Source: Eubacterium sp. (GTDB taxonomy: Bacteria; Bacillota; Clostridia; Lachnospirales; Lachnospiraceae). Taken from it: DNA of 64,000 nucleotides. The stretch lies in the NCBI GenBank assembly GCA_017634555.1, contig JAGBNF010000011.1, forward strand, positions 1 through 64,000. The letters run 5' to 3'. The notes under the pieces are model-generated. The model searched no databases. It worked only from the letters and a program-made list of their open reading frames with translations, and had not been told where the DNA came from. Every line of letters starts with the position of its first letter. The first letter of the stretch is position 1. Position numbers and translations under genes: made by a program. Shown here one piece after another: positions 6 through 20,727 of the stretch.

Positions 6-78
6 TGGGGTATCGCCAAATGGTAAGGCAACGGACTCTGACTCCGTCATTTTCTAGGTTCGAATCCTAGTACCCCAG
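6..78 (+). tRNA. tRNA-Gln (CUG)
   Basis: The cloverleaf can be drawn by eye. Acceptor arms TGGGGTA/TACCCCA pair, the anticodon arm ACGGA/TCCGT closes loop CTCTGAC with anticodon CTG, and the T arm CTAGG-TTCGAAT-CCTAG is intact. The bases after discriminator G78 read CA rather than CCA, so the CCA tail is probably added enzymatically. The 3' half (36-78) is duplicated at 13102-13144, which makes this gene the integration target of the downstream element. The 3' part of the present gene is therefore supplied by the element. Confidence 0.95.
36..78 (+). repeat. attL: 43-bp direct repeat (tRNA-Gln 3' end)
   Basis: From the anticodon loop to the discriminator base this stretch is identical to 13102-13144. 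The flanking bases differ at both ends (a35/t13101 and c79/t13145), so the repeat is exactly 43 bp. Duplication of a tRNA 3' end around a tyrosine integrase gene is the usual sign of site-specific integration. The distance between copies gives an element of about 13.07 kb. Confidence 0.93.
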
Positions 79-305: not shown

Positions 306-788
306 TTACCAGCCTTTTATTGATTTGATATCCTTATCTCTTTCCGGATCTGTATGATTGATTAGTAGTGCATCAATCATATTAACTACATCTTTTCTTG
401 CACTATCATCCAGTCTGTAAAAGTTCGTAAGTATGTGATCCACATCCGGCATAGAATTTTTTCCATACATAAACATAAGTGGGAATATAGAATGCTTTAG
501 ATAGGTTTTAACTCTATTAGCATCAAGTTTTCCGCCGAGAGCATCCGGAAGTGTGGGATATATCTCTTCTTCTGTGATATCGCCGGAGAAGGGTACATTT
601 GAACAGATATCCTTTACATCTATTTCCAGTTCATTTGCAATACGTAGCGCAAAGTCAAATCTGATATGAGAATCATTTTGGATTATGTAATAAAGAGTAG
701 TCCTTCCAATGCCGGTTTTCCTGGATAACTCTCTTACACTCATATTTCTACTATCAAGTATTTCTTTTAAATTCTTTCCATCTCCCAT
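306..788 (-). CDS. XRE/cI-type HTH repressor of the mobile element
   Basis: This is a 160-aa protein with an N-terminal XRE helix-turn-helix in the first ~60 residues (VRELSRKTGIGRTTLYYII with the following helix) and an uncharacterised C-terminal half. The frame is open upstream, but the ATG at 788 is preceded by GAGG at good spacing, so the start is placed there. The gene is divergent from the xis-int genes. Repeated GTACAAAAACTGTAC boxes fill the shared intergenic region, which suggests that it represses the rightward promoter and its own transcription, as in other integrative elements. That control circuit is inference; the HTH is clear. Confidence 0.8.
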   Translation of the reverse strand: MGDGKNLKEILDSRNMSVRELSRKTGIGRTTLYYIIQNDSHIRFDFALRIANELEIDVKDICSNVPFSGDITEEEIYPTLPDALGGKLDANRVKTYLKHSIFPLMFMYGKNSMPDVDHILTNFYRLDDSARKDVVNMIDALLINHTDPERDKDIKSIKGW

Positions 789-812
789 AGTATATACCTC
801 GCTTTCGTTGTA

Positions 813-964
813 GTACAAAAACTGTACAAAAAATATATTACCATATTTGGACACAAAAAGGAAGAATTATTAAAGGTGTACAAAAACTGTACAAAATACA
901 AAAACGAGTATTGACACACCAGAATCCAGATGTTATAGTATACACAAGTACAAAAACTGGACAG
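813..964. promoter_or_regulatory. three operator repeats (GTAC pairs)
   Basis: GTACAAAAACTGTACAAAA occurs twice, identically, at 813-831 and 878-896, and a variant GTACAAAAACTGGACAG lies at 948-964. In the first two, two GTAC boxes are 11 bp apart, about one helical turn. One site sits just before the repressor start, one upstream of the rightward -35, and one just past its -10. The arrangement looks like a lysogeny-type switch read by the adjacent XRE repressor. Confidence 0.75.
911..939 (+). promoter_or_regulatory. sigma-A promoter for xis-int
   Basis: TTGACA (911-916), a 17-bp spacer and TATAGT (934-939) make a near-consensus promoter. It is bracketed by the GTAC operators at 878-896 and 948-964, so a bound repressor would block it directly. 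The first gene downstream starts at 1001. Confidence 0.82.
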
Positions 965-1000
965 CGAGAAAAAACAAAAACTAAACAGGAGGTAAAGTCT

Positions 1001-1195
1001 ATGAATGGAGAAGAATTAAAGGTTTTTACAGCCAAAGAGTTGTCGGAAGTTCTAAAGATAGGTCGTGATAAAGCGTATGCTTTGATCAGATCTAAGGGTT
1101 TTCCATCAATATGTATCGGTAAAAGGTATATCGTTACTGAGAAGGCACTTAATGAATGGCTGGTTCATTATGAGCATAAGAATTATGTTCTGTAA
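1001..1195 (+). CDS. Xis-like MerR-type HTH (HTH_17) protein
   Basis: This 64-aa protein has the excisionase-family DNA-binding pattern: FTAKELSEVLKIGRDKAYALI, then SKGFPSICIGKRYIV, then a C-terminal helix. The ATG at 1001 follows AGGAGG at ideal spacing. It lies directly between the regulated promoter and the integrase, where excisionases (recombination directionality factors) usually sit. An excision role is family-based inference; a purely regulatory role is possible. Confidence 0.8.
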   Translation: MNGEELKVFTAKELSEVLKIGRDKAYALIRSKGFPSICIGKRYIVTEKALNEWLVHYEHKNYVL

Positions 1196-1220
1196 GAAAA
1201 AGAAGAAAAGAGGTGATAAA

Positions 1221-2507
1221 GTGGCAGATGATAAAAAGAAAAGAGGCGCCAGAGGAAATGGTACATTTATAGAACGTAAGGACGGTACATTTATATATCG
1301 TAAGAGTCAGGGTTTAAATCCTAATGGTAAAAGAAAATACATTTCTGTGGTAGGTGAAACCAAGGCTATATGCGTAAGACGAATGAAGGAAAAGGAAGAG
1401 CTGTTAAAAAGAGAAAAGAATAAAATCTGCCTGAGTGATACAGATACTGTTGAAGAATTGTGTCAAAGACATCTGGCATATCAGATCCGAAATAAGGAAC
1501 TAAAACCAAAATCAATAGATAGACGAGAAGATACTATCAGAAATCAGATTGGAAAATATTCTTTAGGGAAGATGCAGATACAGGCAGTTAAGCCAGCGGA
1601 TATAGATAATCATATTAATGTTCTGATTGGTACAGGGTTATCTGTATCAACAATAAAGAAAAGTCTTGATGTGCTAAATGCTGCATACGAATGGGCTGTT
1701 GTAAGAGCTGAATTAACATTTAATCCTGTCCTACAGATAAAGAGAAGCATACAAAAGAGGTTATCTAAGCTTGGAGCTAAGGGTGCCGCTGATGCAGATG
1801 TAATAGTGCTATCTCGTGATGAAGAAGAACTGTTTTTAAGAGAAGCATTAAGAACAAATGAGAATAATGGTCAGTATAAATATGCTGGTGGATTATATGG
1901 ATCTCTGCTTCTTCATACAGGAATGAGAACTGGCGAGATGATAAGCCTCAGGTGGAAAGACTATGATGCAAGTAACGGTCTTTTAACTATTAATAAAAGT
2001 ACATCTATGACTCGAAATCGTAATGCAGATGATGATGAAGCAAAAAAATATGTTGCTGTCCAGGGTACTACAAAAAATCAAAAAGCAAGAGTCATCAAGC
2101 TATCTGAAGAAGCGATAAATGATTTGCGGAGAATAGCTGAAACGAATCTAGGGAAAACAGATGATCTGATTTGCAGAACAAAGACCGGAAAACAGTATAC
2201 TGCTACTATGCTGGAACATTGTATGGGAACCATTTATAAACATGTGAAGTTTATCACAAAAGTCAGCGGTTTGCATATTTTCAGGAGGACATTTGCTACA
2301 AGAATGTTTGAAAATGGAGCAGATGTTAAGGAGATAGCAGCTTACATCGGAGACCTGGAATCGACAACGATGCAGTATTATATAGCGGCTCGTCAGAAGA
2401 TGGTAGTTGGTGATTCTGTAAGACAGGTTGTTCCTCTTCCGGGAAGCAGAAATGTGAATAACGAAAAAAGAGATGCTCCTGCTGGTAACAAGAACATCTC
2501 AGAGTAG
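1221..2507 (+). CDS. tyrosine recombinase (integrase)
   Basis: This 428-aa site-specific integrase has an N-terminal AP2/arm-binding region (GTFIERKDGTFIYRKSQG), a SAM-like core-binding domain, and a C-terminal catalytic domain. The catalytic set is visible: Arg in HTGMRTGEM, His-x-x-Arg in LHIFRRTF, and the nucleophile Tyr in TTMQYYIAA. A GTG start at 1221 is chosen because AGAGG precedes it at 7 bp; the upstream ATG at 1152 overlaps xis and has no ribosome site. The enzyme should recombine the 43-bp tRNA-Gln core. The gene ends in a stop inside a short hairpin-containing spacer (2508-2602). Confidence 0.93.
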   Translation: MADDKKKRGARGNGTFIERKDGTFIYRKSQGLNPNGKRKYISVVGETKAICVRRMKEKEELLKREKNKICLSDTDTVEELCQRHLAYQIRNKELKPKSIDRREDTIRNQIGKYSLGKMQIQAVKPADIDNHINVLIGTGLSVSTIKKSLDVLNAAYEWAVVRAELTFNPVLQIKRSIQKRLSKLGAKGAADADVIVLSRDEEELFLREALRTNENNGQYKYAGGLYGSLLLHTGMRTGEMISLRWKDYDASNGLLTINKSTSMTRNRNADDDEAKKYVAVQGTTKNQKARVIKLSEEAINDLRRIAETNLGKTDDLICRTKTGKQYTATMLEHCMGTIYKHVKFITKVSGLHIFRRTFATRMFENGADVKEIAAYIGDLESTTMQYYIAARQKMVVGDSVRQVVPLPGSRNVNNEKRDAPAGNKNISE

Positions 2508-2602: not shown

Positions 2603-3496
2603 TTGATACTGAAGAATAAAACACAGAACAACTTTACTATGATCAGTAATAATATTCTTCGCGATAATAGCCTTAAAATGATAGATCGTGGGGTGATATG
2701 CACGATATGCAGCCTTCCGGATGGTTGGGACTTTTCTGTAGCGGGTTTATGCAAAATTGTACCGGATGGAAAGGATGCAATAACAAAATCATTGAAGAGG
2801 CTGGAAACCAAAGGATATTTAAGACGAACAAGTGTACATGGTGATCATGGGCAGTTTAAATCACAGATAGAGGTTTTTACTGAAAAAGATTGTGGAGGGA
2901 AGGAATTACAATCAGTTGACCATGGCGGATTTACCATGGCGGATAATCCGTCACGGAGAAACCGTCACGGTTTAACCGCTGCGGTAAATCCGCCACAATA
3001 TAATACTGATTATATAAAACAAAATAGTAATAAAGATAATGATAAATCTATCATTCATTCAAAATCGGAAGATGAAGATTTAGAGATAATCACAGCAGAA
3101 TCAGAAGATGGATTGAATGAAGGAATGAATGATAACTCAAAGCTGGATTTATTCATAAACTCAACGAAGAAAAGAGTAGAATATGACAGGCTTATACAGT
3201 CAGTAAAAGTAGATGAAGCAGTATATGTGGATTTACTGGTAAGAATAATAGCAGAAGAATTATGTGATGCTGACAGTAAGTGTATTAAAGTGGCCGGAGT
3301 TTACATGGATGGTCCCTCGGCAGTATCACACCTGCTGAATTATAAGTTTGATGAGATATTTGCGGTTGCTAAAAATCTAAAAGCAGCGAATATTTCCATC
3401 AATAAACCTAAATCGTATTATATTACATCGCTTGACAATCAATTGAAGCTGAATAAGCCTGATGTGTATTTAAGATTAAATGTGGATGATGAATAG
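2603..3496 (+). CDS. replication initiator-like HTH_36/DnaD-type protein
   Basis: This is a 297-aa protein. Residues ~8-75 match the winged-helix start of plasmid/phage replisome organisers (FTMISNNILRDNSL, then LPDGWDFSVAGL and a second helix with TKSLKRLETKGYL). A Pro/Asn-rich linker (MADNPSRRNRH) follows, then a C-terminal helical part. The start is TTG at 2603, eight to nine bases after AAGGAG; the first ATG would remove part of the fold. With parM/parR and a relaxase downstream it points to autonomous replication of the excised element. The replication role is inferred from family architecture. Confidence 0.7.
   Translation: MILKNKTQNNFTMISNNILRDNSLKMIDRGVICTICSLPDGWDFSVAGLCKIVPDGKDAITKSLKRLETKGYLRRTSVHGDHGQFKSQIEVFTEKDCGGKELQSVDHGGFTMADNPSRRNRHGLTAAVNPPQYNTDYIKQNSNKDNDKSIIHSKSEDEDLEIITAESEDGLNEGMNDNSKLDLFINSTKKRVEYDRLIQSVKVDEAVYVDLLVRIIAEELCDADSKCIKVAGVYMDGPSAVSHLLNYKFDEIFAVAKNLKAANISINKPKSYYITSLDNQLKLNKPDVYLRLNVDDE
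2921..2994. repeat. GC-rich repeats inside rep: possible origin iterons
   Basis: Within the rep linker-coding region CATGGCGGAT occurs twice (2921-2930 and 2935-2944). GGCGGATTTACC (2924-2935) is exactly inverted at 2983-2994. AAACCGT-C-ACGGTTT forms a palindrome at 2959-2973. The block is distinctly GC-rich compared with its surroundings. Origins lying inside rep genes are known for this protein type, but the repeats could also merely reflect the repetitive NP-R linker of the protein. Confidence 0.5.
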
Positions 3497-3505
3497 GAGC
3501 AAAAA

Positions 3506-4431
3506 ATGGATAGAGTGAATTTTAATAATTATGAAATCATAGGTATAGACCATGGTTTTGGAAATATAAAGACAAGAAATACAACTTTCCGGGCGGGAAT
3601 AACAGTCAGCGATATAGAGAATGATATCGCTACGGATGTTGTGAAGTATCAGGATAAGTACCTGATCATCGGTGAAAACCATAAAAGCTTTGAGTCAGAT
3701 AAAGTAATAAATGATGCTTACTACTATCTGACGATAGCAGCATTGGCGAAAGAGATGAGAATCAGAAAGATCAGATCAGCAAAGCTGGTGCTTGCTGTAG
3801 GGCTTCCTCTTATGTGGGCGCAGGAACAGCGGGAAGTATTCAGAAATTATCTTATGCGTGAGAAGGAGCTGGAGTTTGAGTATAAAGGTGTATCCTACTC
3901 TGTCACTATTGAGAGAGTTCTGGTATTCACTCAGGGTTATGTGGCAATCATGGAACGTATTGGTAAACTGGACGGTATCTATTATGTTGCTGATATAGGA
4001 AATGGAACTATTAATGTTATGTACATAAACGATCATAGGATTAACAGCTCGAGATGCTTTACTGACCAGTTGGGGGTACGGAAGTATATCGAGAGTATCC
4101 AGAATGAAATTGCGAACAAGATGCAGAAGGACATCCCTTACGATATCTGTGAGGAATACCTGATAAAAGGAACTACTACCTTACCAGAGCGGATACAAAA
4201 CATTATGGATGAAACAGCCTGCAGGTATGTTGCTTTCATGGTAGGAAAGCTCAAGGAACATGGATATGATCCGGATTATATGAAGCTGATCTGCATGGGC
4301 GGGGCACTGGTATCGTAAAAAGATACTTACGCTTACCTGATGCAAATGTGGAATACATGGATGATATCAGAGCTACAGCGAAGGGCTATGAGCAGTTTGC
4401 TCTTGCTGCTCTCAGAAAAGAGATGAAGTGA
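3506..4431 (+). pseudogene. ParM/StbA-like actin partition ATPase, frameshifted
   Basis: The first 270 codons encode a ParM-family actin-like protein: IIGIDHGFGNIKT (phosphate 1), VADIGNGTINVMYI (phosphate 2) and LICMGGALV (adenosine motif). A TAA at 4316-4318 then ends the frame. The expected C-terminal helix (KRYLRLPDANVEYMDDIRAT) continues in the -1 frame from 4315 to the TGA at 4429-4431, just before parR. No slippery heptamer is visible at the junction, so an indel or a sequencing error is more likely than programmed frameshifting. If real, the polymerising ATPase lacks about 38 residues. Confidence 0.8.
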
Positions 4432-4432
4432 A

Positions 4433-4858
4433 ATGGGAAAGAATAAAAAATGTGTACACATCAGGTTTAATCTTGATGACAAGATGGAAGCTGATGTGTG
4501 GAAATGGCTTCATAGTGCAGCTGATGAGGAGCATAATTCCATGAATGGATTTGTGCTCCAGGTGCTAAGCAGGCAGATGTCCGGGAGTGATAACAGTGTT
4601 GCTTTACAGAATACTGTTATCGATTTACAGGACAGCGTGCAAAATATTATGTCTGATAGTCTGGTGGACAGACTTTCTGACAGAATAATCGAAAGGCTTA
4701 GCGCCAAGATGGACCTGACGGATTTACGCCTTAGTGTAAATCCATCTTCATCATCCGAGAACGGCAGTGGTTCGACAGATGATGGAGATTCGGTGTCAGG
4801 TGAATATCTGGAATCCAGTATTCCGGAGGAGGCACTGGATTTCATGGGTGGATATTAA
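4433..4858 (+). CDS. ParR-like centromere-binding protein
   Basis: This 141-aa protein begins with a ribbon-helix-helix-like pattern (HIRFNLDDKMEADVWKWL followed by SMNGFVLQVLSRQM), as in ParR partners of ParM. A Ser/Gly-rich acidic tail follows. It starts one base after the restored parM frame ends, in the same operon. Its stop codon lies in the arm of a hairpin whose GGTAGCA/TGCTACC element recurs 40 bp downstream; these are candidate ParR sites. Identification rests on gene order and size as much as on sequence. Confidence 0.65.
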   Translation: MGKNKKCVHIRFNLDDKMEADVWKWLHSAADEEHNSMNGFVLQVLSRQMSGSDNSVALQNTVIDLQDSVQNIMSDSLVDRLSDRIIERLSAKMDLTDLRLSVNPSSSSENGSGSTDDGDSVSGEYLESSIPEEALDFMGGY

Positions 4859-5150
4859 GTGGTAGCACTCTGCTACTACTTAATATTCAGATGTAGTTTG
4901 CGTGGTAGCAGTATGCTACCATATCGTTCCTGCCGGAGTGATATTTGTAAGATGCCGGTGACATCTTACAGTCGCAAAATACATCCATTATATCAGCCCA
5001 GAGGCTGATATCTACGGTGAAGCGGTACGGTTCCCCTCGGAGAGCACAAGTTCGTTTTGATGGCTTCGCTGTCAAAACTAATATTGTGTTACTCTTGGCA
5101 AGAGTAACAGAATCGCAGCTCCGCTTCGTCACCATCCTCCGAGATATTTT
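4856..5150. repeat. hairpin array: candidate oriT and/or parC
   Basis: Short hairpins are packed between parR and the relaxase. They are TAAGTGGTAGCA with its complement (4856-4882), GGTAGCA-GTA-TGCTACC (4904-4920), TGTAAGATG/CATCTTACA (4946-4970), ATATCAGCC-CAGA-GGCTGATAT (4990-5011), GTTTTGA/TCAAAAC (5054-5078) and GTTACTCTT-GGC-AAGAGTAAC (5088-5108). CTCGGAG and CTCCGAG near 5036 and 5136 can pair over the array. Transfer origins and ParR centromeres both occupy this position in plasmids. The nick site cannot be fixed by eye. Confidence 0.6.
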
Positions 5151-5211
5151 AGAAAGTGAATATATAGATTATGAAATATACTGTAAATTCAAAAGAGAAG
5201 GAGATGATCAA

Positions 5212-6762
5212 ATGGCTGGAAATCAGCGTTCCATATGTGTTGCCAAAGGAGCAGGCAGCATGGATCATAACAATAGGAAGTTTATTGCTGAAAATGTTGA
5301 TGAATATAGAACCAGGTTAAATAAAACTTATATTAGGGAAAATGAATTAGATGCTTATGAGAAATGCTTTGGAGATGCTGTAAGAGAGTATGATGCAAAA
5401 CAAACTCGAAAAAACAGAAGGATAGGCTCATCTAAGAATTATTGGAATAATGTAAGAACTTCAGGAAATGGAGAGAAAACATTTTATGAGATTATTGTTC
5501 AGGTCGGGAATATGTATGATTCCGAGTGCCTTACAGAAGGTGGCAGGGTGGCGCAGAAGATTCTTGATGAATATATGCAGTCTTTTAGGGAAAGGAATCC
5601 GAATATATATGTATTTAATGCCGTAATGCATCTTGATGAGAAAACACCGCATTTACACATTGATTATATTCCAATTGCAACAGGGTATAAGAATGGAATG
5701 TATAAAAGAAACAGTTTAGATAGAGCATTTAAACAAATGGGGATTGAGGTGAAAGGTAAAGTTGGAAAATATAATAACAGAACAATTGCCTGGGAGAACC
5801 GGGAAAAGGATTACATAGAGGAACTTCTTCATGAACATGGACTGGAGAGAGCACCTGATCAGGAGAACGATAGAGAACATCTATCTGTTGAGGAGTATAA
5901 AGCTGCTGTAGAAGCAATAAAAGATGAAGTAGAAGAGCTTCCAGCTCAAATTGAAGCTACAGCAATACCATTTACACAAAATGTAATGGTAAAAAAAGAA
6001 GACCTGGAAAAAATTGAGAAGCGGGCAAAGCTGTCAATGGTTCATGAGGAAACCTCAAAGAAGATTCGTGAGGAAACAGAGAAGGAACTGGATGAGATTA
6101 AGGAACAAAACCTGGAATCCAAGGAAATTAAGAATAGAGCGCGTTCGTATCTGAAAAGTGCTACGAGTAAGGCTGATGAGACGGAATATATAGCGGAAAA
6201 GAAAGCTGAAGAAATAATAGAGGCTGCAGAGAAGAAGTATGCTGAAGCTGAAGCCCAGAAGGAACTCTATATTGAAAAATATAATGAACAACCGGAATTG
6301 AATCAAAAATATGAGGAACTTCAAAGAATTCATGAAGAAGATACGGAGTCTATTAATATCCTTACTGATAAACTTATTGAGTCAAGGAAGGAGGTGGCTT
6401 CTCTTAAATCGGAGATAGTCGAATTAAAGAATTCAATTGAAAGTAAAATTATAGCAGCTACTGCATCATTAGAAAAACAGATTCAAGAGCTCAAAGGACA
6501 ATTGAAAGCTGCGTATACATATATAACTGATATTGTAAAAGCCAGTGGAATGCTTGCATATGATAACGGGGTATATAAGGTATCATTTACCGCTGTTCAG
6601 AAGAAACTGGTTGATGCAATTAGTTCTTTTGCTTCTAAGAAAGCAAGAGAGAATGGCTTCTCAGAATTAGCTGACGATATGGATAAACATGTCAATATTT
6701 CCAAAGAAATAGATTCCTATATTTGGCCTGATCAAAAAAGAAATCGAGGCATGTCACTGTAG
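5212..6762 (+). CDS. MobV-type relaxase (Mob/Pre)
   Basis: This 516-aa plasmid mobilization relaxase carries the hallmark metal-binding motif HLDEKTPHLHIDYIPI (HxDE..PHxH), typical of the MOB_V family. The conserved nicking-domain N-terminus is followed by a long Lys/Glu-rich coiled coil (about residues 260-450). ATG 5212 is chosen because AGGAG lies 8 bases upstream; the frame is open back to 5017, but that part covers the hairpin array and has no start site. The enzyme should nick oriT in the preceding array and be carried by a helper conjugation system, since no type IV secretion genes are present. Confidence 0.9.
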   Translation: MAGNQRSICVAKGAGSMDHNNRKFIAENVDEYRTRLNKTYIRENELDAYEKCFGDAVREYDAKQTRKNRRIGSSKNYWNNVRTSGNGEKTFYEIIVQVGNMYDSECLTEGGRVAQKILDEYMQSFRERNPNIYVFNAVMHLDEKTPHLHIDYIPIATGYKNGMYKRNSLDRAFKQMGIEVKGKVGKYNNRTIAWENREKDYIEELLHEHGLERAPDQENDREHLSVEEYKAAVEAIKDEVEELPAQIEATAIPFTQNVMVKKEDLEKIEKRAKLSMVHEETSKKIREETEKELDEIKEQNLESKEIKNRARSYLKSATSKADETEYIAEKKAEEIIEAAEKKYAEAEAQKELYIEKYNEQPELNQKYEELQRIHEEDTESINILTDKLIESRKEVASLKSEIVELKNSIESKIIAATASLEKQIQELKGQLKAAYTYITDIVKASGMLAYDNGVYKVSFTAVQKKLVDAISSFASKKARENGFSELADDMDKHVNISKEIDSYIWPDQKRNRGMSL

Positions 6763-7181: not shown

Positions 7182-7210
7182 TTGACAAAGAACAATAAGA
7201 CTTGTACAAT
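7182..7210 (+). promoter_or_regulatory. strong promoter of the peptide cassette
   Basis: TTGACA (7182-7187), a 17-bp spacer and TACAAT (7205-7210) form a near-consensus sigma-A promoter. It lies 35 bp before the peptide gene's ATG, which has GGAGGTG as its ribosome site. The cassette therefore has its own promoter, independent of the mobilization genes. Confidence 0.85.
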
Positions 7211-7244
7211 GATAAAATAAATCAAAATTTGGAGGTGTTTTTTT

Positions 7245-7463
7245 ATGAGAGCGTTATCTAGAGAAGAACAAATTAAAATGTTAGGTGGAAGTGCTCATGA
7301 GAATGTTATTTATACTGGAGACACTTATATAGCAGACTGTGTCAAGTGTGATACATTTTGGGCGGGAACCACACGAAGTGATGTGCAAAGTTTAGCGTAT
7401 AAACATTATTTGAAAAAAGGGGGAGCTGCTGGCGGACACAGATATAGATGGATTAGTGATTAG
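7245..7463 (+). CDS. double-glycine leader peptide (bacteriocin or signal precursor)
   Basis: This is a 72-aa precursor. Its first 15 residues end in LSREEQIKMLGG, a close fit to the double-Gly leader consensus cut by C39 peptidase exporters, and such an exporter is encoded 2.3 kb downstream. Cleavage after Gly15 would release a 57-residue peptide starting SAHENVIY. The mature part has CVKC and two histidines in the pattern C-x2-C-x18-H-x10-H, which could hold zinc or support a disulfide, and a GGAAGGH segment near the end. I recognise no bacteriocin family. A strong ribosome site (GGAGGTG) precedes it. No modification enzyme is nearby. Confidence 0.75.
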   Translation: MRALSREEQIKMLGGSAHENVIYTGDTYIADCVKCDTFWAGTTRSDVQSLAYKHYLKKGGAAGGHRYRWISD

Positions 7464-7512
7464 ATTTCGAATTTGTATTTGTATTGTTTTTTAATATGGG
7501 ATATTAAGATTT

Positions 7513-7551
7513 TTGCACTTATGTAGGTTTTTAGAACTTATATAAGTGCAA
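7513..7551 (+). terminator. attenuator hairpin after the peptide gene
   Basis: The arms TTGCACTTAT (7513-7522) and ATAAGTGCAA (7542-7551) pair perfectly around a 19-nt loop, with no strong T run after them. Its place between precursor and export genes fits partial termination or message stabilisation, giving more precursor than exporter. Confidence 0.55.
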
Positions 7552-7574
7552 GTTCATATAGGACGATTGTAAAA

Positions 7575-9737
7575 ATGAAAAATAAGACGAATGTTTTTTT
7601 GATAATAGTATTGATACTATTGTTTGTAATATCAGGTTGTACAGAAAATATATCCGAGGAAGAAAATACTGCATCTAATATAAATAATATAAATGAAGAT
7701 GATGTAATTAAACATATTTATAGTTGTATTGCAGAAAAAGAAATAAATATAGATAATATTTTAGATTATTACATAGATCAAAATGATTGTTACATCGCTA
7801 ATGGATCAAATATATATAAGTATGATTTGAGCAACAATGAAATGACAATGATATACAGTTTTTCTGCATCACAAAAACTTGTAAAAATTTTTAAATTTAA
7901 CGATGTTGTAGTTTTAGCAGATAATTATTTAATCCTGATAGATAAATTTGGTAATGAACTAAAAAAAATAAAAACGGATTTATCTGATATTAATTCGGTT
8001 AACGAATTACTTTGTGATAAATCAGGGAATATATATTTGATATGTGACGATGAAATTATTATATATAATAATAATCTTGAAGTTATTGATTGTATCACCG
8101 GAGATGGAACATATATTGATGGGGCTGTCAGTTCTATGGGGAGGATTATTATATATGAGGAAGAGAATTATGATGTTGATAAAAGTTCCCCAGTGGTATA
8201 TGCATTAGATGAATCATTTAACAAAGAGTATATTGACAATATTATCCCATGTGCGTGTGAAAACACTAATGTATTATTGGATGGGGGCGATGACGATTTT
8301 TATTATTTATCTTATGATGGGATTTTATATTCATATAGCATAGAAGACAAGAAAAAAAATATTATCATTAAAGAATCGGATTCAATGTTGAGAGATGAAG
8401 ATATAACATCTTTTGCATCTAAAAATAATAAAGAATTTGTTAGGATAATAGACAATGATGAAGAGACAAAGTTGAAAGTGTATGGAAAGACTGAATCATT
8501 GAACTTTGAAGGTAAAAAAGTTATTAAAATTTTGACAAATAATAGATATGGTAAGCTCTTAGACGATGTCATTGATTTCAACGAAAATGATGGTGATTAC
8601 TACATTGAAATTGTTGAAGTTAATCAAAATATAGATGAACAGCTAGATTTATTAATTGCTAAAGGTGAGGTACCTGACATAATTGATGTCTCCTCGATAT
8701 CTTATGAGAAGTATTCATCAAAAGGATTATTTGAAGATCTTATACCTTATATAAATGAAGATGAAGAACTTAGCTTGTCTGATTTTCATAAGACTTATTT
8801 AGATAGTATGGTAAAAAACGGAAAGTTATTTATTGCGAGTGATGGCTTTTCTATAAATACTGTAATAGCAAACGAAAAGATGGTGGGAGAGATTGAAGGA
8901 TGGGACACAGAAGGTTTTATAGATTTTGTTTCTTGCTTACCTCAGGACTGCAAAGTATTTTGTCTTGATTCAAAAATGGATTATTTTAACACATTGATAA
9001 GTAGAAATACAGATAAATTTGTTGACTATGACTCTTTAGAATGCTCATTTGATAGCGCTGAATTTAAGAGTATTTTACGATTTTGTTGCGAATATGGGAG
9101 AGACTATTCAGATATGTCAGATGATGAAATAACAAGCTCGATTTTTAATGAATATCACGAGATTAGATGTGGTAATCAAGCATTACATGATGAAATAATA
9201 GAACCGTATGGATATGCTTCTTCTATTTCTGCTTTTGATGAATATACATTTGTTGGCTATCCAAATGAATCTAAAAACGGGCACTATATGAGGCTTAATA
9301 CTCAATTTTGTATTTCTTCTTTTTCAGAAGAGAAAGAAGGAGCGTGGAGGTTTATCAGAAGATATTTATCTTCTGATTATCAGGAGTCACTACTGATTGA
9401 AGAAGAGGCTTTTCCCACGAGAATTGATGTTTTTGAAAAAATGATGTTACGCATGAGAGATGAAAGCACATATTACGATGAATATGGAGATATTGTACCA
9501 CAATATTATTTAAAAGTTGACGAAAATTGGAATAGGCTAGAAAATGAAAAATTAAGTGAAGAAGATATGCATAAGTTAGAAAACTTGATTGACAATGTTC
9601 ATGGAGTTGAACATTATGACTATGCGTTGTTGGGAATTATACAAGAAGAATCTGAAAGATATTTTAATGGGGATATAAGTTTAAATGATGCTGTAGATAT
9701 AATACAAAACAGAGCGTTTGTATATATAAATGAATAA
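7575..9737 (+). CDS. large lipoprotein with solute-binding-like C-terminal half
   Basis: This 720-aa protein has a signal peptide and lipobox VISGC (Cys22), so it should be anchored outside the membrane. Residues ~50-330 read as repeated beta-strand blades (KYDLSNNEMTMIYSF, LVLIDKFGNELKKIK and similar), probably a propeller. Residues ~350-650 resemble an ABC sugar-type extracellular binding protein (LDLLIAKGEVPDIID, later EEKEGAWRFIRRYL). No importer permease is nearby; it is sandwiched between a leader peptide gene and its exporter. A role in peptide folding, immunity or reception is an inference. The composition is strikingly AT-rich. Confidence 0.7.
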   Translation: MKNKTNVFLIIVLILLFVISGCTENISEEENTASNINNINEDDVIKHIYSCIAEKEINIDNILDYYIDQNDCYIANGSNIYKYDLSNNEMTMIYSFSASQKLVKIFKFNDVVVLADNYLILIDKFGNELKKIKTDLSDINSVNELLCDKSGNIYLICDDEIIIYNNNLEVIDCITGDGTYIDGAVSSMGRIIIYEEENYDVDKSSPVVYALDESFNKEYIDNIIPCACENTNVLLDGGDDDFYYLSYDGILYSYSIEDKKKNIIIKESDSMLRDEDITSFASKNNKEFVRIIDNDEETKLKVYGKTESLNFEGKKVIKILTNNRYGKLLDDVIDFNENDGDYYIEIVEVNQNIDEQLDLLIAKGEVPDIIDVSSISYEKYSSKGLFEDLIPYINEDEELSLSDFHKTYLDSMVKNGKLFIASDGFSINTVIANEKMVGEIEGWDTEGFIDFVSCLPQDCKVFCLDSKMDYFNTLISRNTDKFVDYDSLECSFDSAEFKSILRFCCEYGRDYSDMSDDEITSSIFNEYHEIRCGNQALHDEIIEPYGYASSISAFDEYTFVGYPNESKNGHYMRLNTQFCISSFSEEKEGAWRFIRRYLSSDYQESLLIEEEAFPTRIDVFEKMMLRMRDESTYYDEYGDIVPQYYLKVDENWNRLENEKLSEEDMHKLENLIDNVHGVEHYDYALLGIIQEESERYFNGDISLNDAVDIIQNRAFVYINE

Positions 9738-9760
9738 AAATATAATAGGTTGGTGATTAA

Positions 9761-11905
9761 TTGAAATATCCGTTTATAAGACAACATGATAGAAAAGATT
9801 GTGGTGTTGTTGCTCTGGCAATGATATGTAAATATTATGGCCGAAAAGTGAAAATATCTCAAATGAGATCTGATGTTTGTTTAGATTCCAATGGAGTTAG
9901 CATATTGGGAATAACGGAAGCTGCATATCGATATGGGTTGTTAGCTTCGGCGGTAAGTGGTACAAGTGATGAACTTTTAAGTGATATTAAAGAACAAAAA
10001 TTACGTTTTCCATTTATCGCAAGAGTATTGAATGATGAGGGACTTTATCATTTTGTAGTAGTTTATGAGAAGAAAAATCAAAGATTTATTTATGGGAATC
10101 CGTCCGAAAACAGAATAAAAAGCATATTAATTGCTGATTTTTTAGAGATTTGGGCTGGTCAAATTATTACATTTACATCTGATGATAGCTATATTAATGA
10201 TTCTAAAATTGAATTTTCGCTAAAAAAATACCTGAAACTTATTATGAAATATAGAAGAATGATGGTTTCAATTATTTTATTAACGATAGTAATTATTTTG
10301 TTGGAACTATTAGGAATAATTGCTATAAGAAACATTTTTTCTGCAAGATGGAATACGTCAAATATGACAAAGAGTGTTTTTTACATTATTATACTATTAT
10401 TTGCTAATTTTTTTGTAAAATTAATTAACGGGGGATTTAGTGCAAGATATTCAAAAAAAATTCAAAAGGATATACTTGAAATATACTACTCCATTTTGTT
10501 ACGGCTTCCATTGGAATTCTTTGATATTAATTCAACAGGAGAATTGATGTCGAGATTTCAAGATGTTCAATATGTCGAAGGTTTTCTATCACAATCTATT
10601 TTGTCACTGATTATTGACTCAATAATGATAGCGATTTATGGTTTTTTTGCGTGTCGAATAAATATGGTGCTTGCATTTTTTGTTCTAATGCTTTTAATTG
10701 TTTTAGCTTTTGTTTCTATTCTTTATAAAGATAAAAATGAAGAACAAGTATCTAAGCTTAAAATGTATAATGCTCAAGTAAATGCGACGCTTAAATGTGA
10801 TATTGACGCAATTGAAACAATAAAGAGCTTTCAATATGAAAATGACAAAATTATACAGATGAGAGGGTTAATAGAAAAATACACAGAAATAATCAAAAAA
10901 AATAATATTCTGCTTAATTCGAAATCAGTAATAACTTCATTTCTAGATATGATTTGCGTTGTTTTTATCATTGTCTATGGTTCTTATCTCTGTCATGAGG
11001 GTGGCTTAAGTGTTAAGGATTTGTTTGTTTTTTATTTTTTAACAAGTTTGATAGCTGAGCCAATTAATAGATTAGTTAATCTATATACTGATTTACAATC
11101 TGTTGTTATTTCAGCTGAAAGAGCTGATGATATATATGATTCTATTAATGAAAATCAAATCCATAATGGCAACAAAGATTATTGTGAGGGAGATATACTT
11201 ATAAGAAATTTGAATTATGCATATGGATATGGAAATAAAGTCTTAACTGATATTAATATTAAATTTGAGAAGGGAAATAATTATGCGCTTGTTGGATGCA
11301 GCGGATGTGGGAAAACCACAGCTGCAAAACTTTTAGCAGGCTTACGAGAAGCGAAAGAAGGAGAAATATTTATAGGATGTGTTGATATGACACAAATAGC
11401 TATAGAATGCATTAGAAAAAAGATCATTTATTTGAGTAGTAAACCAGATATTTTCAATGATACAGTGATTAATAATATACAATGTGGTCTTAATGAAATT
11501 AGTCGTGAGGACATTACTAATTTATGTGCATATTTTGGATTGGATTCATTTATTTGTAATTTGCCGTTTGGTTATGATTCTATGTTAGAAGAAAATGGGA
11601 GAAATTTATCTGAGGGGCAAAAACAGAAGATTTCAATAATAAGAGCTATATTACATCGACCAAGTGTTATTATTCTCGATGAAGCAACGTGTTGTATAGA
11701 TTCCTATTATGAAGATAAAATTTTGAATTATTTAAAAGATGAAAAAAATATAACTGTTATAATAATATCTCATAATTTAAGGACAGTTAAACCTTGTTCA
11801 TGCATTTATGTTCTAGATAAAGGCAAGTTAATTGAATATGGCAATCATAGTGAGTTGATTAGTAATAAAGGATTATATTATTCTATGTTATACGGAGATG
11901 GATAA
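9761..11905 (+). CDS. C39 peptidase-containing ABC exporter (PCAT)
   Basis: This 714-aa bacteriocin-type transporter cuts double-Gly leaders and exports the peptide. The C39 domain (1-~140) shows RQHDRKDCGVVALAM with Cys14 and His97 in YHFVVVY; the third catalytic position, usually Asp before Pro, is Asn113 here (YGNPSE). Membrane segments follow (~165-440). The ATPase has Walker A GCSGCGKTT, signature LSEGQKQ and Walker B VIILDEATC. The start is TTG at 9761 after a GGTTGGTGA ribosome site. It matches the leader peptide upstream as its probable substrate. No HlyD-type accessory protein is seen. Confidence 0.9.
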   Translation: MKYPFIRQHDRKDCGVVALAMICKYYGRKVKISQMRSDVCLDSNGVSILGITEAAYRYGLLASAVSGTSDELLSDIKEQKLRFPFIARVLNDEGLYHFVVVYEKKNQRFIYGNPSENRIKSILIADFLEIWAGQIITFTSDDSYINDSKIEFSLKKYLKLIMKYRRMMVSIILLTIVIILLELLGIIAIRNIFSARWNTSNMTKSVFYIIILLFANFFVKLINGGFSARYSKKIQKDILEIYYSILLRLPLEFFDINSTGELMSRFQDVQYVEGFLSQSILSLIIDSIMIAIYGFFACRINMVLAFFVLMLLIVLAFVSILYKDKNEEQVSKLKMYNAQVNATLKCDIDAIETIKSFQYENDKIIQMRGLIEKYTEIIKKNNILLNSKSVITSFLDMICVVFIIVYGSYLCHEGGLSVKDLFVFYFLTSLIAEPINRLVNLYTDLQSVVISAERADDIYDSINENQIHNGNKDYCEGDILIRNLNYAYGYGNKVLTDINIKFEKGNNYALVGCSGCGKTTAAKLLAGLREAKEGEIFIGCVDMTQIAIECIRKKIIYLSSKPDIFNDTVINNIQCGLNEISREDITNLCAYFGLDSFICNLPFGYDSMLEENGRNLSEGQKQKISIIRAILHRPSVIILDEATCCIDSYYEDKILNYLKDEKNITVIIISHNLRTVKPCSCIYVLDKGKLIEYGNHSELISNKGLYYSMLYGDG

Positions 11906-11922
11906 TGTAGAGGACAATAGTT

Positions 11923-12405
11923 ATGAAAATGAGAGATGACGGTGGTCAGGCTGAAAGACAAAGAGAATATAATAGAATTATTGAAAAGGTAGAAGCATTA
12001 AATAATGAACTACATATTGAAAAAAACATTATAGATAATATAGAATTAAAAAAAATGATAAATCATGAAAAAATGGAAATAGGGCGTTTGTATTTAGTGT
12101 TGGGTGTGATTGGATTGATATTTTTGGTGTGCTATATAAAGCGTATTAATTCATCTGTATCAGGATGTATTTTTGCAATGGCTTTATCCTTCACAATTGC
12201 GGTTTGGAAGATGAGTATTTATAAATTTTTTAAGCCCTTTTATACAGAAATTTTATGGAAAGCTGAAGAAAGAGGAAAATCGGTCATGAAGGATAATTTG
12301 GAGAAAGAAGTCAAGGTACATAAAAAAAGAGTGGAAGACATTCAAAAGGAAATAGATTTATTAAATAAGAGTTTGTTAGATTACGATCATTACGATATTT
12401 TATAG
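11923..12405 (+). CDS. small coiled-coil membrane protein, possible immunity
   Basis: This 160-aa protein has an N-terminal coiled coil, two adjacent membrane helices (~residues 52-92: LYLVLGVIGLIFLVCYI and GCIFAMALSFTIAVW) and a C-terminal coiled coil. It starts 17 bp after the exporter gene with AGAGGA upstream, so it is the last gene of the cassette. No family is recognised. Small membrane proteins at the end of bacteriocin export operons are often immunity proteins, which is offered only as an inference from position. Confidence 0.6.
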   Translation: MKMRDDGGQAERQREYNRIIEKVEALNNELHIEKNIIDNIELKKMINHEKMEIGRLYLVLGVIGLIFLVCYIKRINSSVSGCIFAMALSFTIAVWKMSIYKFFKPFYTEILWKAEERGKSVMKDNLEKEVKVHKKRVEDIQKEIDLLNKSLLDYDHYDIL

Positions 12406-12518: not shown

Positions 12519-12978
12519 TTGGCCGCTTCAGATGTTTTTGTTCTGGATCTGATTGAGGCATATGGCTCAGGAATACGTCGTGCTCAAAAGGCAATGAAGG
12601 ATAATAATTCTCCGCTACTTGTATTTGAATCTGATAATGATATAGATGATTACACTATGGTTACAGCGTATATTAATGAGGAGTTAGCAAGCATTCGGGA
12701 TAAGAAGGATAAACTTCAGTCAAACCGCAAAGAAGAAAATGTTGGGGGAAGACTCTCAGAAAAAGCGGATGTGCTATTGGATAGTTATGAAAAAACGTGA
12801 AGTAGCTTCTATGATTATTGACGAGATATCAAAGAATGGACAGATTACGATTCCAGAAATATCATAGATGATGAAAGTAACAGAACGAGCGGTTCAAAGA
12901 TACCTTAAAGAATTTCAGGAAAGTGGAATATTGGCGAGGGAAGGTAGCGATAAATCTGGAAGATGGATATTGTTATAA
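12519..12978 (+). pseudogene. decayed AlbA_2/COG2865-type regulator
   Basis: The first frame (12519-12800) contains LDLIEAYGSGIRRAQKAM, the C-terminal signature of AlbA_2-domain putative regulators. The expected winged-helix tail continues in another frame from 12787 (KKREVASMIIDEISKNGQ), stops at TAG 12865-12867, then resumes as ERAVQRYLKEFQESGIL to TAA 12976. The N-terminal AlbA_2 part is missing. A frameshift, a nonsense codon and a truncation mean it is a relic. Confidence 0.75.
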
Positions 12979-13101: not shown

Positions 13102-13144
13102 CTCTGACTCCGTCATTTTCTAGGTTCGAATCCTAGTACCCCAG
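13102..13144 (+). repeat. attR: second copy of the tRNA-Gln 3' end
   Basis: Identical to 36-78 over 43 bp, but the upstream half of a tRNA is absent, so this copy is not a gene. It is the displaced original 3' end of the host tRNA-Gln and marks the right boundary of the integrated element. Confidence 0.93.
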
Positions 13145-13147
13145 TCG

Positions 13148-13180
13148 AGGACTTCAGATAAAACGCTGAAGTCCTTTTTC
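13148..13180 (+). terminator. original terminator of the host tRNA-Gln
   Basis: AGGACTTCAG (13148-13157) and CTGAAGTCCT (13166-13175) pair perfectly and are followed by TTTTTC. It directly follows attR, as expected for the chromosomal terminator that was separated from its tRNA by the insertion. From 13181 to 13354 no gene is seen. Confidence 0.85.
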
Positions 13181-13354
13181 TTTTCTAAGCCCATAAAATA
13201 AGGGGTTTCAGAGATTTTTCAAAGGATCAAATCTATCTAATCACATCTGTTTTTTACTCAGATTATTCAGCAATTTATTCCTGTTTATTACCCGAAAAAG
13301 TGGCCTTTTTCGACATGTGTTGTAACACGTCTATATTCACTTACCAAGACTAAT

Positions 13355-13414
13355 TTGACAAATGATAATAATCATGATATTGTATGGTTAGTTAGTTGAG
13401 TAACTAACCATACA
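13355..13414 (+). promoter_or_regulatory. promoter with perfect 14-bp inverted-repeat operator
   Basis: TTGACA (13355-13360), a 17-bp spacer and TATTGT (13378-13383) precede the GntR operon. TGTATGGTTAGTTA (13381-13394) is exactly inverted at 13401-13414 around GTTGAG. The operator overlaps the -10 end and start point, so binding should block transcription. YtrA-type GntR regulators autoregulate through similar palindromes, so the first gene of the operon is the likely ligand. Confidence 0.85.
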
Positions 13415-13442
13415 ACAGGCTTTGAGGAAGGAGGAGACCATT

Positions 13443-13820
13443 TTGGAAATTGATGAGAATTCTCTTACGCCATTATTTATCCAGATCGCAGAATGGATAG
13501 AAAGTGAAATATTATTGGGAAACATTGAAGAAGGGGAATGTATACCGTCTACAAATCAGTTTGCTTCTATATATGGAATAAATCCGGCTACTGCCAGGAA
13601 AGGTTTTGACCTCCTTACAGAAAAAGGAATCATATTTAAAAAACGTGGTATAGGTATGTTTGTTGCAGATGGAGCAAAAGAGAAATTGAGAGAAAAAGCA
13701 AAAACAAATCTAATAGAAGAACGTATTTCTCTTCTCGTTGATGATGCAAAAAAACTTGGAATTAGCAAATCGGAATTAATAGAAATTATAAGGAAATTTG
13801 AAAGCTGGGGTGATAGGTAA
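13443..13820 (+). CDS. GntR-family regulator, YtrA subfamily
   Basis: This 125-aa protein has the winged-helix domain (LTPLFIQIAEWIESEIL to IGMFVADG) and a short two-helix C-terminus without a ligand domain, which defines the YtrA subfamily. The frame is open from 13422, but TTG 13443 is preferred because AGGAGG lies nine bases before it and family members start right before xIDxxSxxP. Its stop overlaps the next start (TAATG), so it is co-transcribed with the ABC genes. In relatives, cell-wall stress lifts its repression. Confidence 0.88.
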   Translation: MEIDENSLTPLFIQIAEWIESEILLGNIEEGECIPSTNQFASIYGINPATARKGFDLLTEKGIIFKKRGIGMFVADGAKEKLREKAKTNLIEERISLLVDDAKKLGISKSELIEIIRKFESWGDR

Positions 13821-14710
13821 TGCATACAGTAGAGGTAAATGGAGTATTTAAAAGTTTTGGTAAAACAAAAGTTCTTAATGGTATAGATTTGAATTTGGAA
13901 GATGGGAAAACCTATGCACTTCTTGGCAGAAATGGATCAGGTAAAACTACATTGATGAATCTGATGTGCACAAAGTATATTCCAGATAAAGGTATGATAA
14001 AGATTCTTGATGAAGAGGCATATGAGAACGACAGAGTCTTGTCTGAAATATGTTTTATGAAGGATTATGTACCTGCCTTTGAAGATGTAAAACTGGTAGA
14101 TATCTATAAGTATGCTGAACGTTTTTATCAGAGATGGAACAAATCTCTTGAGGAAAAACTAACAAAAATGTTTGAACTAGACACAAAGAAGGTATATGGT
14201 TATTTGTCCAAAGGTCAGCAGACAGCTGCCGGACTTATAGTTGGTTTATGCAGCAGTACAAGAGTTTTACTCTTAGATGAAATATATTCAGGTCTTGATG
14301 CTGTTGCAAGAAAAGCACTTTATACAATTATTATGGAGGAACAGGAACGATATACAAGAACGCTTGTTCTATCGAGCCATCTTATAGATGAGATGACAAA
14401 TCTTTTTACGGATGTGATTATACTTCATAAAGGAAAGATTATTCTTAATGAATCTTTGGATATTATACAGGATAAGGCGAGAAAGCTTTCAGGCAGACAG
14501 AATATAGAAGATATATTATCGGGCAAAAATATATTGGGTAAATCTGAGATGGGACCGATTGAAGAAGTTTATATGTATGATGAATTATGCAAAGAAGAAT
14601 TTGAGGAACTAGGGAAAAGGGGTTATAAGGTAACTTCGATGAATCTTCAAGAGTTATTTACCTCTATGACTGGGAACTCAATAGATGATTCAGATAATGA
14701 AGATTCATAG
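13820..14710 (+). CDS. ABC transporter ATP-binding protein (YtrB-like)
   Basis: This 296-aa ATPase has Walker A GRNGSGKTT, a variant signature YLSKGQQ and Walker B RVLLLDEIYSGLD, followed by the switch His in LSSHL. The C-terminal ~80 residues are an accessory extension. It overlaps the GntR stop codon and precedes two membrane proteins, which it should power. By analogy with YtrABCDEF it is an envelope-stress or antibiotic-sensing exporter; the substrate is unknown. Confidence 0.88.
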   Translation: MHTVEVNGVFKSFGKTKVLNGIDLNLEDGKTYALLGRNGSGKTTLMNLMCTKYIPDKGMIKILDEEAYENDRVLSEICFMKDYVPAFEDVKLVDIYKYAERFYQRWNKSLEEKLTKMFELDTKKVYGYLSKGQQTAAGLIVGLCSSTRVLLLDEIYSGLDAVARKALYTIIMEEQERYTRTLVLSSHLIDEMTNLFTDVIILHKGKIILNESLDIIQDKARKLSGRQNIEDILSGKNILGKSEMGPIEEVYMYDELCKEEFEELGKRGYKVTSMNLQELFTSMTGNSIDDSDNEDS

Positions 14711-14725
14711 ATTATGGAGGGGGAT

Positions 14726-15280
14726 ATGCTTTTTGATTATAATTATGATCGCTGGGCACCAATAATTAAGAATTCATATATCATCCTTCTGGTTATTTTT
14801 GAGTGCATCTATGTATTTATAAATCCGCTGATAGATAAAGGATTTGAATTGAGAAGTGTATTTGACTTCAGAAGGGGCATAAATATTAAGAAAAACATTA
14901 TAAGTAATCTTATATGTATTGTTGTTATGTGGGCTGTGTATATTGCGTTATGTATCATTATATGTCGTTTAACATCTGAAGATATATCATTTACAGGACT
15001 TAGCACATTTCTATTTTTGGCGACATCAATATATATGTTGAATTCTGGAATGACTGTAAAAACAAGATATAAGGTGGTGTTAATAATACTATTCGCTTCG
15101 GCTCCGATAATCGCATTTCTTGGAGTGATCTATACAAATAATACGCTGAATTATTATGATCATTCTGTTGAAATATTTACAAATCGATTTATGGGCAGTA
15201 TTACAGCAATTTATGTGATTGCTTTTATAATAACCCTAATAATGTTTGTTCATTATTGGAAGAAGGAGGATGTGAGGTAA
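14726..15280 (+). CDS. ABC-associated membrane protein, five TM segments
   Basis: This 184-aa hydrophobic protein has about five predicted membrane helices (for example SYIILLVIFECIYVFI and IYVIAFIITLIMFVHYW). Of the two possible ATGs (14714, 14726), the second is chosen because GGAGGGGG immediately precedes it and would otherwise be coding. It sits between the ABC ATPase and another membrane protein and is probably one of the permease subunits. No sequence family is recognised. Confidence 0.72.
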   Translation: MLFDYNYDRWAPIIKNSYIILLVIFECIYVFINPLIDKGFELRSVFDFRRGINIKKNIISNLICIVVMWAVYIALCIIICRLTSEDISFTGLSTFLFLATSIYMLNSGMTVKTRYKVVLIILFASAPIIAFLGVIYTNNTLNYYDHSVEIFTNRFMGSITAIYVIAFIITLIMFVHYWKKEDVR

Positions 15281-15284
15281 TCTT

Positions 15285-16430: not shown

Positions 16431-16471
16431 AAATAACGAAACAAATCGTTTCTTAAATTGATACTTGAATT

Positions 16472-16536
16472 AAAACCCGTTTTATTCAGCAACAAAAGCA
16501 AAAAGGTAAGCTTTTCCGCTGGATAAAACGGGTTTT
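16472..16536. terminator. long bidirectional hairpin terminator
   Basis: Arms of 19 bp (16472-16490 and 16518-16536) pair with one mismatch; each starts or ends with AAAACCCG or CGGGTTTT. The structure lies between convergent genes (ABC operon and fic), so it can stop transcription from both sides. Confidence 0.75.
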
Positions 16537-16562
16537 AAGTGCTATATAATCGATATTTACAT

Positions 16563-17576: not shown

Positions 17577-17685
17577 CTTTCTTTCCTCCGTCTTGTATTC
17601 TTCGTATGTGTATTAGTCATCGGAATCTTCTTGCTACGCTTGGGCATAAGCTTTCTTTATTCTTTCATAATCACTTATAACCATT

Positions 17686-18528: not shown

Positions 18529-18755
18529 TTATATGTTTACACCTGTTCTTGCTCATTTTCAATTCCTATATGTGGTATACATTGGGTTTTCTCTTCTTCA
18601 GAAGAGGCTTCCTTCAGTTTGGTATTTTTGCGTTGACGTAATGCATCCCATATCTAAATATTATACCTCCGGATATATAGCGTTGTAAAACACGTTGTAA
18701 TATATATGAATAAAATTGCTTGAAATATTGATGATTATAGTATAATTAAATATAT

Positions 18756-20009: not shown

Positions 20010-20022
20010 CAATATTAGTATT

Positions 20023-20697: not shown

Positions 20698-20708
20698 AGG
20701 GAAAATTG

Positions 20709-20727
20709 CTAGGTTCGAATCCTAGTA
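20709..20727 (+). repeat. third T-arm copy: possible old attachment site
   Basis: Nineteen bases are identical to the T-arm region of tRNA-Gln (52-72 area and 13119-13138 area), but the acceptor stem and anticodon halves are missing and the downstream bases differ. A terminator follows at once, as with the two full att copies. It may be the worn far end of an older insertion spanning 13145-20727, or the relic of another tRNA gene. Confidence 0.6.

Follow-up and report, generated by a model that had tools for sequence, protein, structure and literature searches.

A double-glycine peptide cassette with a predicted zinc-finger-like product and a putative immunity lipoprotein on an integrated element of a Eubacterium species

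The window analysed here comprises bases 1-64000 of contig JAGBNF010000011.1 from a 2.33-Mb, 72%-complete assembly of a Eubacterium species (Lachnospiraceae). Between positions 7182 and 12405 it carries a cassette in which the gene for a small double-glycine precursor is followed by genes for a large lipoprotein, an ABC (ATP-binding cassette) exporter with a C39 peptidase domain and a small membrane protein. A preliminary description of this DNA had named these parts together with a promoter and a hairpin, and all of them were located in the sequence:

7182..7210, + strand: sigma-70-type promoter, TTGACA-N17-TACAAT, 11 of 12 consensus positions matched
7245..7289, + strand: double-glycine leader of 15 amino acids (aa), with L-12, E-8, Q-7, M-4, G-2 and G-1
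7290..7463, + strand: mature 57-aa peptide, C-x2-C-x18-H-x10-H, with a predicted zinc-finger-like core
7513..7551, + strand: RNA hairpin of 18 pairs (centroid fold) between the precursor and lipoprotein genes
7575..9737, + strand: 720-aa lipoprotein with an N-terminal beta-propeller-like part and a C-terminal solute-binding domain, proposed as immunity factor
9761..11905, + strand: peptidase-containing ABC exporter with C39, transmembrane and ATPase domains
11923..12405, + strand: 160-aa membrane protein, unmatched in the other 60 genus genomes searched

The promoter is the sole site with 11 of 12 matches between 6.7 and 13.0 kb, where looser promoter-like sites, 46 in all, were not above the 43.4 of shuffled sequence. 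The cassette had been described as more AT-rich than its surroundings, and its GC content is indeed 28.8%, compared with 37.3% in the backbone of the integrated element to its left, 34.1% in a neighbouring island (13145-20708) and 41.8% in the remainder of the window.

The precursor gene (7245-7463, + strand) encodes 72 aa beginning with the leader MRALSREEQIKMLGG. Double-glycine leaders follow the rule L(-12)-x3-E(-8)-L(-7) and end in GG, GA or GS (PMC6363468). The window precursor has Leu at -12, Glu at -8, Met at -4 and the GG end, with Gln instead of the consensus Leu at -7. Leaders of 15 residues were found in all eight aligned precursors, and a C-x(2-4)-C pair and one histidine are common to the eight. 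No described precursor family fits the window precursor, which had no family match in Pfam, NCBIfam or PHROGs. When it was compared alone with 299 genomes of the family, only itself and two weak matches were obtained; its relatives were reached through the lipoprotein. No match was found on plasmids, and none of 45 pattern matches of the precursor alignment on viral contigs was confirmed. Weak precursor matches in the genomes G200, G251 and G356 were rejected, as no C39 peptidase domain or lipoprotein adjoined them on reading (in G200, two ABC transporters without C39 lie nearby). Further weak matches fell in G134, G271, G378, G421, G480 and G487.

The mature peptide was modelled with AlphaFold, which gave a confident beta-beta-alpha core with a CxxC knuckle, a histidine in the helix and an extra C-terminal strand. 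The precursor profile had eight weak matches in the PDB, all of them to zinc-finger proteins, and Foldseek with the peptide model found no PDB match at E 0.001. The classical C2H2 zinc-finger motif is C-x(2-4)-C-x12-H-x(3-5)-H, and the window peptide with its spacings x2, x18 and x10 lies outside it. In the model, the strand order, knuckle and helix histidine resemble those of C2H2 zinc fingers, including the archaeal-virus protein AFV1p06 (2lvh); C39 export, the x18/x10 spacing and the additional strand set the window peptide apart. Classical spacing (x2, x12, x4) occurs in one of the eight peptides, the second at locus L170 (loci outside the window carry L numbers). This 54-aa double-glycine precursor (8107-8271, - strand) has C-x2-C-x12-H-x4-H, the textbook C2H2 spacing, in its mature part. 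Mature peptides of this precursor type are 39-57 aa long, and the window 57-mer has a calculated mass of about 6385 Da in its reduced, metal-free form. With moderate confidence, the model suggests that the window peptide folds as a small zinc-finger-like domain with the candidate ligands C17 and C20 in the knuckle, H39 in the helix and H50. Such a fold would point to a folded metal-binding peptide and not to an amphipathic pore former. This moderately supported, predicted feature was absent from the preliminary description.

The exporter has the domains of a peptidase-containing ABC transporter (PCAT), an N-terminal Peptidase_C39 (E 2.3e-28) with ABC_membrane (E 1.7e-25) and ABC_tran (E 5.1e-25), all above the Pfam cut-offs. 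Against NCBIfam TIGR01193, the best of 188 models, it scored 405.5 bits and did not reach the naming threshold of 523.85. Its closest solved relative is 4ry2, which we take to be PCAT1. The catalytic Cys (DCG) and His (HFVVVY) are present in the window exporter. The position of the catalytic Asp reads Asn in the window, L061 and L121, and Asp in L119, L123 and L170. The double-glycine leader and the conserved pairing with C39 exporters, described below, strongly suggest that the exporter would cut after Gly-Gly and release the peptide of 57 residues, as had been proposed.

The lipoprotein (7575-9737) contains the lipobox-like ISGC. Alone, it reached 20.8 bits against the Pfam solute-binding model, below the cut-off of 27. 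The solute-binding domain was recognised with a 14-row lipoprotein profile, of which positions 365-748, the C-terminal half, matched CbpC (7x0o; E 4.5e-42), presumably a cello-oligosaccharide binding protein, and other sugar-binding proteins. The N-terminal part of the profile weakly matched LST8 and SEC12 (E 2.1e-4 to 0.0065), both of which we take to be beta-propellers. Direct structure prediction of the lipoprotein was poor (mean predicted local distance difference test score, pLDDT, 51.5) and was left out of the fold search. Compared with CbpC, the cassette lipoprotein shares the C-terminal half, adds the propeller-like part and stands without importer permeases. No match of the lipoprotein was found on plasmids or viral contigs. 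A single phage record, MT835833.1 ('Bacteriophage sp.' from human faeces), matched with 54% covered, and at 18812-19957 it encodes a relative of the C-terminal half.

A precursor with conserved zinc-ligand-like residues, adjoined by a surface binding protein, could also be read as a zincophore, that is, a zinc-scavenging molecule that the lipoprotein captures once loaded. We consider this highly improbable. The zinc type of solute-binding protein is ZnuA, and the domain found here is of the sugar type instead. By eye no zinc importer was recognised in the cassette, and no search aimed at zinc importers was made.

The distribution of the lipoprotein was then analysed. At E 1e-8 it matched in 37 of the 299 genomes of the family and in 29 of the 61 genomes of the genus. 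The survey covered 80 fetched regions (79 obtained via lipoprotein matches and one via a weak precursor match), which are a selection from the lipoprotein-matching places, as well as L170, L176 and the window. These held 102 lipoprotein genes. MalF/MalG-type permeases lie within 9 kb of 54 of them, a count to which two L073 genes contribute through a distant permease match alone (they were relabelled for the tree); 8 are near a C39 exporter or double-glycine precursor and 40 have other neighbours. L050 is a typical importer-like locus, where the lipoprotein is found together with two permeases of the BPD_transp_1 family and a HlyD-like protein. Since the importer label was given priority over that for exporters, permeases near exporter-linked genes were checked separately. 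The 64-kb window gave no MalF/MalG match, and neither did the stretches fetched for L061, L119, L121, L123 and L176, where the contigs of L123 and L176 are only 8.4 kb long.

The named relatives with the cassette are Lachnospiraceae or Eubacterium assemblies. Two other species of the genus have the window's gene order of precursor, lipoprotein and C39 exporter, one at L119 and the other at L123; in L123 the exporter is followed by another lipoprotein. A scan of genome contigs confirmed 3 of 20 candidate stretches, namely two contigs that length and match identify as those of L119 and L123, and L176. In L176 the precursor is accompanied by two lipoprotein genes, of which the second is truncated where the contig ends, and this pair lies outside the genus loci. 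A second architecture was observed in L061, from the genome of the window itself, and in L121, from another species: an ABC ATPase and a pair of membrane proteins accompany the precursor, C39 exporter and lipoprotein, and gene order differs between these loci. The L061 pair of membrane proteins matched no Pfam permease family. Two such precursors and a C39 exporter also occur in L170, which belongs to another genus, but no lipoprotein was found in its 19 kb. Thus the lipoprotein is present at six of the seven loci with this precursor type. The precursor type occurs at all five exporter-lipoprotein loci of the genus, which its profile matches by construction because it was built from loci found through the lipoprotein. 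A double-glycine pattern scan of 83 loci returned 21 matches, including 7 precursors of this type; the pattern was set with known leaders in view and the scan is not an independent test. The preliminary description had made the cassette depend on a 72-aa reading frame conserved beside C39 exporters. The reading frame is conserved beside such exporters, the three genes recur together in L119 and L123, and precursor and lipoprotein are also joined in L176.

Among the 61 listed C39 exporters of the genus, five have such a lipoprotein within 6 kb, compared with 0.38 expected (Poisson 4.6e-5); the count includes the window (4 of 60 without it), and the Poisson value overstates independence because it was the lipoprotein that led to the genus loci and because the window is part of the count. 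Matches starting in the C39 domain were used, with 18 candidates scored per genome, and two truncated ones starting at residues 81 and 82 were dropped.

A hairpin is a further shared property of these loci. In the window the stretch 7464-7574 folds at z -5.1, and none of 200 shuffles folded as well. The feature had been called an attenuator hairpin. The hairpin with its 18 pairs was recovered, and the attenuator is unproven; a reading as attenuator or terminator was dropped since the hairpin at 7513-7551 lacks a T-run and the terminator scan was empty. Strong hairpins stand right after the precursor gene in four of the five other precursor-lipoprotein loci, with z -5.6 in L174 (the L119 contig), -6.0 in L175 (the L123 contig), -6.5 in L176 and -4.1 in L121. 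None was found in L061 (z -0.65) or behind either of the precursor genes in L170 (z -1.1 and -2.8). The position is shared between the loci and the sequences are different. The hairpin probably maintains a surplus of precursor transcript over the downstream genes.

To relate the exporter-linked lipoproteins to the others, a tree was calculated from 93 lipoproteins of at least 600 aa; nine of the 102 genes, encoding less than 600 aa, were excluded. All six exporter-linked lipoproteins fell into one set together with one other row, L127 (support by the SH-like approximate likelihood-ratio test, SH-aLRT, 98), in a tree made by a quick method in which the window row is a long branch. When the precursor-linked L176 was included in the exporter label, three changes were needed compared with 6.8 in shuffles, and 0 of 500 shuffles were as low. 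The L176 lipoprotein itself sits among importer-type and other rows and looks like a second recruitment. In the L127 operon two proteins matched models of lactococcin 972 operons, bact_immun_7tm (E 7.2e-09) and the ATPase model L_ocin_972_ABC (E 7e-74). The locus was kept as lactococcin 972-like on these two matches, though both are below the cut-offs; its small secreted protein matched no lactococcin 972 model. A lipoprotein of the same clade thus occurs in one lactococcin 972-type operon, from which the window cassette differs in having no DUF1430-type membrane protein and in exporting via C39 and not via a Sec signal.

These results bear on whether the lipoprotein belongs to the cassette at all. 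It could be an ordinary sugar-binding protein carried along by chance, with only precursor and exporter forming a system, as the 54 importer-associated genes, the match to CbpC and the lipoprotein-free L170 might suggest. The preliminary description had itself named an ordinary sugar importer as the alternative, and this does apply to the wide family, about half of which lies near permeases, but the exporter-linked members form a separate, permease-free clade. Gene order is also the same in three loci, and L176 provides a second, separate pairing. A chance passenger is therefore quite unlikely. The lipoprotein might also act as a chaperone or export accessory for the peptide, considering that its gene separates those of precursor and exporter at three loci (window, L119 and L123). 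This is very unlikely, since it stands apart from the exporter in L061, the fetched stretch of L127 has a clade member with a small protein that by eye carries a Sec-type signal and contains no C39 exporter, and L170 lacks the lipoprotein despite having precursors of this type and an exporter.

We favour, with about even confidence, the reading that the cassette is a horizontally mobile bacteriocin-like system for a secreted peptide, with an immunity lipoprotein derived from solute-binding proteins that works like LanI. After export, the lipoprotein would stay on the surface of the producer and bind the peptide or its receptor site, which would give self-protection. LanI lipoproteins bind the peptide or shield its target, alone or with a LanFEG transporter (PMC4239024). 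The two cassette architectures mirror these two situations: the lipoprotein with its ISGC lipobox stands near the peptide gene alone in the window type, and in L061 and L121 its gene is joined by those for an ABC ATPase and two membrane proteins, comparable to LanI with LanFEG. This is an analogy of function and not of membership. Unlike NisI, SpaI and PepI, the cassette lipoprotein is much larger (about 720 aa), combines a propeller-like part with a solute-binding domain and is seen without lanthipeptide enzymes. On this analogy it is, with moderate confidence, a putative immunity factor; the earlier choice of 'receptor, chaperone or immunity factor' now leans to immunity, by context only.

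In class II bacteriocin systems, whose peptides are unmodified and have a double-glycine leader, the immunity gene directly follows the structural gene as a rule, which is the position of the lipoprotein gene here. The cassette also shares with them the 15-aa GG leader, the dedicated peptidase-exporter and the lack of a recognisable modification enzyme. It differs by the predicted zinc-finger-like mature peptide and by a precursor outside the Pfam, NCBIfam and PHROGs families. Neither a zinc-finger bacteriocin nor an immunity lipoprotein of the solute-binding type was among the literature matches listed.

This bacteriocin-like reading has three weak points. First, 56 of the 61 listed C39 exporters of the genus have no such lipoprotein within 6 kb; in six regions around exporters of this kind the precursor type was found in none, and the L215, L216 and L217 regions contain other double-glycine peptides. 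Second, the third catalytic residue of the window exporter is Asn. Third, the 160-aa protein (11923-12405) gave no match in the 60 other genomes and does not belong to the conserved unit. It had been described as a small two-transmembrane protein, of which one hydrophobic segment is clear (about residues 50-77) and the second weak (about 77-99).

The peptide might instead be an intercellular signal, with the lipoprotein acting at the surface as a receptor or as a binding protein for uptake. Signals, too, are among the cargo of C39 exporters (PMC6363468), and the C-terminal half of the lipoprotein is a solute-binding domain. A related domain within a 1077-aa membrane protein of L221, BlaR1-like by eye, suggests that domains of this kind can sense ligands. 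We regard a signal as unlikely, because inspection by eye of the cassette and of the neighbourhood of the L119/L123 unit showed no histidine kinase, response regulator or oligopeptide permease, and because probably folded peptides of 39-57 aa are large for a pheromone.

The bacteriocin-like reading can be extended by a tentative and rather doubtful proposal of decoy immunity. Zinc-finger bacteriocins would target the propeller/solute-binding importers that are common in Lachnospiraceae, and the cassette lipoprotein would be a captured, permease-free copy of the binding protein of the target that mops up the peptide. Such mimicry would predict a second, separate capture like the one in L176, where the lipoprotein groups with importer-type genes. 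If it were true, MobV elements with other lipoproteins of the family might carry orphan immunity cargo.

If the bacteriocin-like reading holds, double-glycine peptides exported by bacteria would include folded domains of a zinc-finger-like kind, and a lipoprotein taken over from nutrient-binding proteins would protect the producers. The fold would be one not seen for bacteriocins among the literature matches listed. Precursor profile and lipoprotein clade would then form a searchable pair for rumen and gut Lachnospiraceae and suggest a candidate receptor class.

The cassette had been regarded as cargo of a mobilizable element, and this was borne out by the attachment repeats, the integrase and the MobV-type relaxase. 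The element spans about 13.07 kb and is bounded by a perfect 43-bp tRNA-Gln direct repeat at 36-78 and 13102-13144, so that the earlier description is corrected to an integrated element with these exact ends. Outside the cassette it contains:

36..78, + strand: left attachment repeat, 43 bp, perfect direct repeat within the tRNA-Gln(ctg) gene at 6-79 (ARAGORN)
306..854, - strand: Cro/C1-type helix-turn-helix (HTH) regulator of the element (Pfam HTH_26, E 8.9e-10)
911..1195, + strand: HTH_17 protein, putatively excisionase-like (Pfam HTH_17, E 6.7e-10)
1152..2507, + strand: tyrosine integrase (Pfam Phage_integrase, E 9.3e-19)
2603..3496, + strand: HTH_36 protein, putatively replication-initiator-like (Pfam HTH_36, E 1.5e-08)
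3506..4318, + strand: ParM/actin-like partition protein (Pfam ALP_N, E 9.4e-12; PHROG partition protein, E 1.1e-27)
4433..4858, + strand: small protein with a weak ribbon-helix-helix match (Pfam RHH_4, E 0.028, below cut-off)
5017..6762, + strand: MobV/Mob_Pre-type relaxase (Pfam Mob_Pre, E 1.1e-10, above cut-off)
12519..12800, + strand: fragment like the RecG C-terminal part (HATPase_c_4; Pfam E 0.0034, below cut-off)
13102..13144, + strand: right attachment repeat, 43 bp

Against the NCBIfam MobV model the relaxase scored 35.7 bits and did not reach the cut-off of 100. Judged by its sequence, the cassette is cargo of an integrated element carrying mobilization genes, which illustrates a possible route of spread for a peptide-export trait.

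A third copy of the tRNA-Gln repeat, 19 bp long, lies at 20709-20727 and suggests a second, tandem island at 13145-20727. This island encodes a GntR regulator, a Fic protein, a DUF2262 protein and the ATPase of an ABC transporter, which is accompanied by two proteins that belong to no Pfam family.

Lipoproteins of the wide family were also observed in other settings. At L073 (G268:C7:89000-108900) three of them alternate with small proteins, judged by eye to have Sec-type signals, and with membrane proteins about 570 aa long, which matched no bacteriocin model. An assignment of L073 as a lactococcin 972 locus was dropped, as neither Pfam nor NCBIfam supported it. In L152 (G320:C18) and L222 (G317:C88), from two species, a 785-aa lipoprotein of the family is encoded after a MobV fragment, and the two lipoproteins are identical at 783 of 786 translated positions, stop counted. 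Such lipoproteins are thus carried repeatedly by MobV elements. The MobV-bearing element of L221 (G317:C84, 365-6445) encodes a 115-aa double-glycine-type peptide and a BlaI-like regulator (both named by eye) beside the 1077-aa membrane protein; a portion of the latter matches the lipoprotein (22% over 440 aa), as would be expected of a sensor domain.

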